In this document: positions 9,157 to 63,692 of the stretch, piece by piece
Layout of the letters: every line of letters starts with the position of its first letter
How positions within the stretch are numbered: position 1 is the first letter of the stretch
Origin: Candidatus Schekmanbacteria bacterium RIFCSPLOWO2_02_FULL_38_14
GTDB lineage: Bacteria > Schekmanbacteria > GWA2-38-11
Assembly (NCBI GenBank): GCA_001790855.1
Contig: MGDH01000008.1
Coordinates: 14,990 to 78,989, forward strand
Direction of reading: 5' to 3'
DNA: 64,000 nucleotides
Notes under the pieces: model-generated
The model's input: only the letters and a program-made list of their open reading frames with translations
What the model was told of the DNA's origin: nothing
Databases searched by the model: none
Translations under genes and position numbers: made by a program

Positions 9157-9249
9157 GTCATTGCGAGCAAAAAGCGAAGCAATCTCGTTTTTTTTGAGAT
9201 TGCCACGTCGCCTGCCTGCGGTAGGCAGGCTTACGCTCCTCGCAATGAC
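9157..9249. repeat. GTCATTGCGAG-family palindromic repeat, 93 bp copy
   Basis: Begins GTCATTGCGAG (9157-9167) and ends with its complement CTCGCAATGAC (9239-9249). Internal sub-terminal blocks GCAATCTC and GAGATTGC also pair. The right half contains a nested GCCTGCCTGCGGTAGGCAGGC-type hairpin. It lies between the convergent aroF and PilX-like genes, where it may also serve as a bidirectional terminator. Confidence 0.85.
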
Positions 9250-11056: not shown

Positions 11057-11149
11057 GTCATTGCGAGCGACCGATAGGGAGCGTGGCAATCTCTTTATTT
11101 GCAAGAAAAATTATGAGATTGCTTCGTCGCTATTGCTTCTCGCAATGAC
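11057..11149. repeat. GTCATTGCGAG-family palindromic repeat, 93 bp copy
   Basis: Ends are GTCATTGCGAG (11057-11067) and CTCGCAATGAC (11139-11149), with inner GCAATCTC and GAGATTGC blocks. Its 18-base stretch AATTATGAGATTGCTTCG is identical to the sequence spanning the stop codon of the GIY-YIG gene in the 465 bp element (33998-34462). It fills the gap upstream of the large PilX-like gene. Confidence 0.85.
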
Positions 11150-33997: not shown

Positions 33998-34462
33998 GTC
34001 ATTGCGAGGGACTTTAGTCCCGAAGCAATCTCATAATTCATCATATAAATCTTTCCATTCTGGATTCATATTTTTAATCAATCCAATTTTCTTATCTCTT
34101 GAACCTGACTTAATCTGTTTTTCTCTCAAAATAGCGTTTTCTATATCATCAAATACCTCATAATAAACCAATTTATTAACATTATATTTCTTCGTAAATC
34201 CTTGATGGATTTCTTTATTCCCTTTAGTACAATTTTTATGCTCATAAACCCTTCTTATTAAGTCATTTGTAACTCCTGTATAAAGAACCGTATTCCATTC
34301 ATTAGTCATTATATAAATGTAATATTGCTTTCCCACGAGATTACAGAATTTCTCCTGAGCCTTAAAGAATGAGATTGCGGAGCTTGTTCCGAGCAATGCG
34401 AAGGAATCTGCTCCGGGTTTGCTTCGGCTTTGCCTCGCAACCGCTTTGCTCCTCGCAATGAC
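33998..34462 (-). mobile_element. 465-bp GIY-YIG element with GTCATTGCGAG terminal inverted repeats
   Basis: Bounded by GTCATTGCGAG (33998-34008) and CTCGCAATGAC (34452-34462). Sub-terminal blocks AAGCAATCTCAT (34023-34034) and ATGAGATTGC (near 34370) also face each other. Between them lies a single gene for a GIY-YIG nuclease whose stop codon is inside the left sub-terminal block. Short copies elsewhere (9157, 11057, 59114) have the same ends without the gene. It lies between pilV and pilW and splits the minor-pilin operon. Confidence 0.7.
34031..34336 (-). CDS. small GIY-YIG nuclease-like protein
   Basis: A 101-residue single-domain protein of the UPF0213/YhbQ-like GIY-YIG class. The signature halves are 'YYIYIMTNEWNTVLYTGVTNDLIRRVYEHK' (Tyr-Tyr-Ile ... 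Tyr-Thr-Gly, with catalytic Tyr and Arg). Then come 'VYYEVFDDIENAILREKQIKSGSRDKKIGLI' (conserved Glu) and the end 'NPEWKDLY'. The usual Ile-Gly of Y-I-G is Thr-Gly here. The start is a GTG matching the family N-terminus; an open frame runs further into the flanking repeat. Relatives are DNA nucleases with poorly defined roles. It is co-directional with the pilin genes. Confidence 0.85.
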   Translation of the reverse strand: MGKQYYIYIMTNEWNTVLYTGVTNDLIRRVYEHKNCTKGNKEIHQGFTKKYNVNKLVYYEVFDDIENAILREKQIKSGSRDKKIGLIKNMNPEWKDLYDEL

Positions 34463-59113: not shown

Positions 59114-59247
59114 GTCATTGCGAGGAGCAAAGCGACGAAGCAATCTCCATTTTCTCCCCCTTTAGAAAAGGGGGATAGAGGGGGATTTGAGATTGCCACG
59201 CTCCCGAAATTTATCCTGAGCATGCCGAAGGGGTCGCTCGCAATGAC
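59114..59247. repeat. GTCATTGCGAG-family repeat carrying a nested repeat, 134 bp copy
   Basis: Ends GTCATTGCGAG (59114-59124) and CTCGCAATGAC (59237-59247), with GAAGCAATCTC on the left and GAGATTGCC on the right as in the shorter copies. Its centre carries a second repeat: CCCCCTTT (59156-59163) with AAAGGGGG (59167-59174) and a trailing AGAGGGGGATTT, the same block as at 33014-33092. The 371-bp gap 59000-59370 contains this element and otherwise no gene. Confidence 0.8.
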
Positions 59248-60172: not shown

Positions 60173-60206
60173 GAGATTGCTTCGTCGCTTTGCTTCTCGC
60201 AATGAC
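60173..60206. repeat. half copy of the GTCATTGCGAG-family repeat
   Basis: Starts with GAGATTGCTTCGTCGC (inner block) and ends with CTCGCAATGAC (60196-60206), giving only the right half of the palindrome. It directly follows the trpC stop codon. The left arm is missing, so it is a truncated copy. Confidence 0.75.
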
Positions 60207-63238: not shown

Positions 63239-63311
63239 GCCGATGTAGCTCAACTGGCAGAGCAGCTGATTTGTAATCAGCAGGTTGGAGGTTCGAGTCC
63301 TCTCATCGGCT
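63239..63311 (+). tRNA. tRNA-Thr (anticodon TGT)
   Basis: Cloverleaf with acceptor GCCGATG/CATCGGC, D-arm 'GCTCAACTGGCAGAGC', anticodon stem CTGAT/ATCAG around TTGTAA (anticodon TGT, decodes ACA) and T-arm 'GGAGGTTCGAGTCCTC'. No CCA is encoded. First of four tRNAs. Confidence 0.95.
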
Positions 63312-63330
63312 AACATAATGATTTTCAAGA

Positions 63331-63413
63331 GGGGAGGTTCCCGAGCGGTCAAAGGGAGCAGACTGTAAATCTGCCGGCGCAGTCCTTCGGAGGTTCGAAT
63401 CCTCCCCTCCCCA
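63331..63413 (+). tRNA. tRNA-Tyr (anticodon GTA)
   Basis: Long-variable-arm tRNA with acceptor GGGGAGG/CCTCCCC, anticodon stem GCAGA/TCTGC enclosing CTGTAAA (anticodon GTA), variable arm 'CGGCGCAGTCCTTCG' and T-arm GGAGG-TTCGAAT-CCTCC. Second in the block, and cognate to the nearby tyrS. Confidence 0.95.
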
Positions 63414-63447
63414 GGAAAAATTGCGAAGCAACTTTTACTGAAAGCTG

Positions 63448-63491
63448 AAAGCTATTGGCTAATAGCTTTTTTAGTGGAAGCGTAAGCTTCC
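63448..63491 (+). promoter_or_regulatory. hairpins in the tRNA-Tyr/tRNA-Gly spacer
   Basis: AAAGCTATT (63448-63456), loop GGCT, AATAGCTTT (63461-63469) then a run of T: terminator-like. Directly after is GGAAGC-gtaa-GCTTCC (63476-63491). They could attenuate the tRNA operon or mark processing sites. Confidence 0.45.
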
Positions 63492-63495
63492 CTGT

Positions 63496-63569
63496 GCGGG
63501 AATAGCTCAGCTGGCTAGAGCGTCAGCCTTCCAAGCTGAGGGTCGCGGGTTCGAATCCCGTTTCCCGCT
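63496..63569 (+). tRNA. tRNA-Gly (anticodon TCC)
   Basis: Acceptor GCGGGAA/TTCCCGC, D-arm 'GCTCAGCTGGCTAGAGC', anticodon stem around CTTCCAA (anticodon TCC, decodes GGA) and T-arm GCGGG-TTCGAAT-CCCGT. Third in the block. Confidence 0.95.
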
Positions 63570-63576
63570 TAGAATA

Positions 63577-63618
63577 TTAAGAGGTCAAAGGCTTTTTTTA
63601 AAGCCTTTGACCTCTTAA
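63577..63618. repeat. perfect 19-bp inverted repeat in the tRNA-Gly/tRNA-Thr spacer
   Basis: Arm TTAAGAGGTCAAAGGCTTT (63577-63595), loop TTTT, arm AAAGCCTTTGACCTCTTAA (63600-63618). The right arm ends 2 bases before tRNA-Thr. Length and perfection exceed an ordinary terminator, and no T-run follows. Confidence 0.8.
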
Positions 63619-63620
63619 TT

Positions 63621-63692
63621 GCCCACGTAGCTCAGTGGTGGAGCACTTCCTTGGTAAGGAAGAGGCCATCGGTTCAATCCCGATCGTGGGCT
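63621..63692 (+). tRNA. tRNA-Thr (anticodon GGT)
   Basis: Acceptor GCCCACG/CGTGGGC, D-arm 'GCTCAGTGGTGGAGC', anticodon stem CTTCC/GGAAG around TTGGTAA (anticodon GGT, decodes ACC and ACT) and T-arm ATCGG-TTCAATC-CCGAT. Last of the block, 184 bp before tuf. Confidence 0.95.

Follow-up and report, generated by a model that had tools for sequence, protein, structure and literature searches.

The 465-bp element that we analyzed here is, in our judgement, likely to belong to a REPtron-like system of cognate nucleases and hairpins, as the member that carries the nuclease gene; in such a system a GIY-YIG enzyme would take the place of the Y1/HUH transposase. It lies in a window of 64,000 nucleotides (the whole stretch of DNA that was analyzed) and consists of a gene for a small GIY-YIG protein enclosed by two hairpin arms (Table 1). 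The termini given in the first-pass annotation of this DNA, GTCATTGCGAG at 33998-34008 and CTCGCAATGAC at 34452-34462, were exact matches when the sequence was read, and the three gene-less copies that it listed were also correct in position and length. Its idea that these ends are what the protein acts on has good support on sequence grounds, as the association of gene and repeat is specific, extends across phyla and is accompanied by co-variation of the two partners.

Table 1 Features of the nuclease element and of the related repeats in the window.
Feature	Position	Strand	Description
465-bp nuclease element	33998..34462	(-)	head-to-head GTC-tagged hairpin arms enclosing the GIY-YIG gene; termini exact
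GIY-YIG nuclease CDS	34031..34336	(-)	PF01541, E 6e-15
3'-side arm	33998..34032	(+)	35-nt hairpin GTC-ATTGC-GA-GGGACTTTAGTCCC-GAA-GCAAT-CTC; ssDNA fold
5'-side arm	34371..34462	(-)	92-nt long version; nested inverted repeats
Gene-less arm pair	9157..9249		93 bp; interior nearly all poly-T
Gene-less arm pair	11057..11149		93 bp; AT-rich spacer; extended-flank subfamily
Gene-less arm pair	59114..59247		134 bp; interior with CCCCCTTT/AAAGGGGG repeat
Lone single arm	60173..60206	(-)	missed in the first-pass annotation

The start of the nuclease gene was inferred from its homologues to be the GTG at 34336, where the list of open reading frames has a TTG at 34396 instead. Its TGA stop codon lies inside the 3' arm (...TGAGATTGC), as it does in many relatives. 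The encoded protein of about 100 amino acids contains a single GIY-YIG domain, and in the family alignment (A1) the Y, YxG, R, H, E and N positions, which we take to be the catalytic positions of the fold, are invariant. An AlphaFold model of the protein (pLDDT 91) has UPF0213, Slx1 and UvrC as its nearest solved folds. In this model a GSR tripeptide is found at the turn joining the helix that bears Glu71, presumably the catalytic residue, to the following helix, and the predicted position of this turn makes it a plausible place of DNA contact. A 6-residue insertion after the EHK motif is present in a loop of the window protein and is missing from the second genomic copy and from most relatives.

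Folded as single-stranded DNA, the 3'-side arm reached -6.8 kcal/mol (z -2.9). The longer 5'-side arm shares 97.8% identity over 91 bp with a copy lacking the gene that lies on a different contig of the same genome (G000:C21, L140:2637-2727), indicating that arms have been copied recently within the window genome. A second conserved block, GCTCGGAACAGGCTCCGCAATC, was seen upstream of several nuclease genes (L004, L007, L020, L032 and, in the window, 34371-34400) and may be either a control element or an arm nested there.

Searching the genome for the terminus returned 175 exact copies of GTCATTGCGAG, whereas the reversed control had no match, which excludes chance. A second bracketed nuclease element of 386 bp was found outside the window (G000:C38). 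Pairs of the hairpin repeat are scattered about 100 times through the genome. The arm statistics given here rest on the approximately 318 kb that were read around the listed copies, in which 95 complete arms share the arrangement GTC-ATTGC-GA, a variable part, and GAA/GTG/AAA-GCAAT-CTC. In the repeat unit, which measures about 35 nt, a GTC tag is followed by a stem of 5 bp (ATTGC/GCAAT); a GA/GAA internal loop separates this stem from the variable apical stem, and the tail reads CTC in 75 of the 95 arms and CCA in two. The 60 distinct sequences of the apical parts keep 213 Watson-Crick pairs compared with 88+/-8 after shuffling, so that the hairpin is conserved and not its letters. Arms mostly occur in head-to-head pairs of 73-171 bp, and the two arms of one pair often differ from each other. 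Among the 35 closed convergent pairs the base before the GTC is T in 22 and C in 8, and an A follows the closing GAC in 31.

The association between gene and repeat was then examined within the genome and across bacteria. The window genome encodes three GIY-YIG proteins; the genes for the two small ones are bracketed by termini and the one for UvrC is not. We also collected the 80 homologues from GTDB genomes that are nearest to the window protein; their hosts belong to Myxococcota, Chloroflexota, Nitrospirota, Omnitrophota, Elusimicrobiota, Cyanobacteriota, Bacteroidota, Pseudomonadota, several CPR lineages and other groups. Of the 78 nearest loci with enough flank, 65 are bracketed on both sides, and the density of termini within 300 bp of the gene is 19-fold that found further off for the 80 homologues. 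The gene lies inside one pair at some loci and between complete pairs in Anaerolineales and a few others. No homologue of the nuclease was found in phage records, and PHROGs gave no match for it.

Some homologues are flanked by GTC-tagged palindromes that are not of the window type (for example GTCATTCCCGC...GCGGGAATCCA and GTCATCCTCGGG...CCCGAGGATCCA). These were observed in two relatives of the window genome, G001 (a sister genus) and G003, and in Neisseria, Aeromonas, Azospirillum, Rhizobiaceae and sphingomonads. These palindromes match CGTC-tagged REPs, and those of Neisseria, Aeromonas and Rhizobiaceae are dRS3-like. The protein tree contains two clades that are parted by a strong branch (100/99) and match the two hairpin designs: proteins with the xxxRxKK motif have GA-loop arms at 84/84 loci, and W.R.WK proteins have continuous-stem, CC-tail arms at 19/23 loci and a GA-loop arm at 1/23, as counted with an arm detector that was written after the data had been seen and has low null rates (0.4-2% in shuffled flanks and 1-3% in far windows). 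The TTGC stem of the window-type hairpin accompanies proteins with the GSR motif at 76/76 loci and those with a W/Y motif at 1/31, where related loci are not independent and the switches of motif and stem amount to few independent events in a shallow, poorly resolved tree. The few W- or Y-motif members of the xxxRxKK clade have stems reading CCCC, CCCT, TTCT, TTTC, TCCC or TGCC, and at one of the W/Y-motif loci (L180) a TTGC arm is also present. Counts over whole genomes follow the same division, with 5-191 copies of GTCATTGCGAG in GSR genomes and mostly 0-1 in W-type genomes; Neisseria has none of them and 220 of the other repeat type. The exceptions among non-GSR genomes are G017 with 20 copies (DYRR), G003 with 8 and G001 with 25, the last being a genome 70% complete in which no GSR-type nuclease was detected. 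As judged from these comparisons, enzyme subtype and repeat sequence change together across many phyla. G001 also holds a W-type nuclease gene with an in-frame TGA and GTCATTCCCGC repeats at its flanks (L085/L090, G001:C148).

Comparison of occupied and empty sites showed that the orthologous pilin-operon site of G001 is without the element: the pilin genes are intact and separated by a spacer of 65 bp, whereas the spacer of the window genome holds the 465-bp element. Similarly, the nuclease gene of Azospirillum lipoferum 4B is inserted between sufB and sufC and relatives are without the gene there, the empty-site sequences of Azospirillum and Shinella being too diverged to fix the exact junctions. 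Where Sinorhizobium meliloti Ak57 has nuclease copies, Sinorhizobium K101 has a single palindrome, and the direction of this change is not discernible. Joining flanks to look for empty sites in the 318 kb of the window genome recovered subfamily flanks only. The first-pass annotation had also suggested aligning copies to look for target duplications; at arm pairs there are none beyond chance, as the matches equalled the shuffled expectation.

We propose that the small single-domain nuclease would recognize its own GTC-tagged hairpin, which it would most likely meet as single-stranded DNA, and would cut there or close by. The arms would then be copied or rearranged through repair or annealing at the site of the cut. 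GIY-YIG enzymes do not become covalently linked to the DNA that they cut and cannot reseal it by themselves, which would leave the rest of the reaction to host repair. The repeats would then persist as a genome-wide population, in which one or two of the pairs have the nuclease gene inside them and carry it along. The sequences show the association, the cognate co-variation, the conserved hairpin, the empty orthologous site and the recent sharing of arms; cleavage of the single strand, its role as the driver of repeat spread and the mobilization of repeats by the nuclease are what we infer.

Exact-sequence and term searches of a library of papers gave no earlier report of the window repeat together with a GIY-YIG protein. 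The first-pass annotation knew of no GIY-YIG nucleases that move such palindromic repeats; the association nevertheless has precedents, as the CGTC-tagged REPs and the Ssn family come close. Ssn proteins, which Chenal et al. are said to have described in Nat Commun in 2025, are reportedly site-specific single-stranded GIY-YIG nucleases that go with NTS repeats in Neisseria. The window nuclease is probably a member of this family. The homologue from Neisseria gonorrhoeae (L104), which we take to be the Ssn gene, is 41% identical to the window protein over 95% (E 1e-16) and is flanked by GTCATTCCCGC...GCGGGAATCC. Both systems combine a small single-domain GIY-YIG protein with abundant short cognate repeats, here the 175 exact termini; unlike Ssn, the window system has a hairpin of another class, a GSR motif in place of KWNR, and a gene that is placed within one repeat pair. 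The small UPF0213 or YhbQ-type GIY-YIG proteins (1zg2) provide the closest solved fold to the modelled structure, but flanking repeats are absent at the one UPF0213-like gene seen (G003, L092).

According to Di Nocera et al. (2013, PMC3733652), the CGTC-tagged REPs, among them dRS3 of Neisseria and RPE-4/RPE-6 of Rickettsia, have no association with genes for transposases. They resemble the window repeat in having a C/TGTC tag at the end of a hairpin that starts A-T, in forming head-to-head dimers and in occurring at high copy with no transposase found. In contrast to the window type, with its short stem, internal loop and CTC tail, they have a continuous stem of 8-9 bp and a CCA tail, and a nuclease partner is not reported in PMC3733652. 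In the window genome both repeat classes meet, since a dRS3/CGTC-like pair (TTCCCACGGAAGTGGGAATCCAG ... GTGGGAATGAC) is nested between GTCATTGCGAG arms at L108:4768-5177. REPtrons (TnpA-REP/RAYT with GTAG REPs; PMC8266576) likewise unite tagged hairpin repeats with a gene flanked by its own repeats, and two hairpin designs have co-evolved with two enzyme groups. The window enzyme is however GIY-YIG and not Y1/HUH, and the system is therefore REPtron-like in its working and not a REPtron by membership.

In 2013 the CGTC-tagged REPs, including dRS3 and the Rickettsia RPEs, had no assigned mover. A nuclease gene that is enclosed by its cognate repeat and varies in type along with it is a direct candidate for that role, and the GIY-YIG enzyme appears to be the partner that this class of bacterial repeats has long lacked. 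We regard as possible, though on balance not quite probable, the broader reading that one GIY-YIG nuclease superfamily is the dedicated partner and mover of the CGTC-tagged REP superclass across much of Bacteria, with a split into two lineages that would read continuous and GA-loop stems respectively and a tripeptide before the invariant Arg79 that would partly set stem specificity. The spread of REPs by an enzyme that is not a transposase becomes testable, and the pairs of protein and hairpin also form a natural code by which DNA hairpins would be recognized according to their sequence.

Several other explanations were weighed against a cognate nuclease-hairpin system. It is doubtful that the repeats serve as regulatory or termination hairpins, with the nuclease as a domesticated housekeeping partner that modulates recombination or DNA uptake and has no part in the spread. 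Such a role would fit the intergenic position of the window copies examined and the modulation of natural transformation that Ssn and NTS are said to exert in Neisseria, but the patchy presence in many phyla, the nuclease copies with stops that occur among homologues, an internally deleted copy and a lineage-specific insertion all resemble the behaviour of a mobile element. We consider it unlikely that the gene is a selfish nuclease of the homing type, for which an abundant palindrome spread by other means would be the home and which would cut uninterrupted palindromes and enter by gene conversion. GIY-YIG domains occur widely among homing enzymes, the protein weakly matches a group I intron endonuclease model, and at two Sinorhizobium sites the gene-less strain has a single palindrome tagged at both ends. 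However, single palindromes are also expected from deletion between the direct repeats of the arms, and the empty sites of G001 and Azospirillum contain no such palindrome. Moreover, the window protein is without the DNA-binding domain of homing endonucleases and scores 21 bits against a cut-off of 56 bits for grpIintron_endo, and repeat type follows nuclease type genome-wide.

The first-pass annotation had read the gene-less copies as MITEs arising by internal deletion of the nuclease element, an origin that we now find very improbable. There is one clear case, a Sinorhizobium meliloti Ak57 copy that retains both arms, has lost most of the gene and lies beside a full copy. In the window genome, by contrast, the gene-less copies turned out to be pairs of hairpins whose interiors are other repeats, AT-rich filler or spacers of unrelated sequence. 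The closed gene-less copies that were read hold no gene remnant (best matches 11-12 nt, at the arm edge), and the arms of the pairs are mostly not those of the gene element; for the copies in the window the reading is refuted. IS/MITE-like target-site duplication is absent. The sequence AATTATGAGATTGCTTCG, noted as common to the copy at 11057 and the region of the stop codon, is indeed shared, but 12 of its 18 bases are arm consensus and it is weak evidence for descent. It is still harder to believe that a Y1/HUH transposase (RAYT) moves the repeats and that the GIY-YIG gene is a passenger. The window genome has eight Y1_Tnp matches, and for the GTAG REPs of other bacteria RAYTs have been proposed as the movers (PMC3733652, PMC8266576), yet no repeat terminus lies within about 700 bp of any Y1 transposase gene of this genome, Di Nocera et al. 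found no CGTC-flanked transposase gene (PMC3733652), and co-variation with the hairpin is not expected of a passenger. A RAYT as the mover is already mostly refuted.

Examination of the sequences around and between the arms revealed additional repeats. About 24 bp past the GTC tag (CTGACCGAGAATTCCCTTTTT) are common to a subfamily of arm pairs (11057 and 59114 in the window; L121, L122, L137, L140, L144 and L113), indicating that some copies belong to an inverted-repeat unit of greater length. The inter-arm space holds two more repeat families, AGCTGACAGCTGATAGC-like palindromes and CCCCCTTTTCTAAAGGGGGA blocks, and loci with such extra interior repeats include L113, L114, L119 and L141, L127, L135 and L145, and 59114-59247 in the window. 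An Rfam search returned tRNAs only, and four tRNA genes are clustered at 63239-63692 of the window. Finally, on plasmid p1 of Planktothrix agardhii (L094) a GIY-YIG nuclease gene with GTCATTCTGAG repeats is located between an MmeI restriction gene and the DISARM gene drmA.
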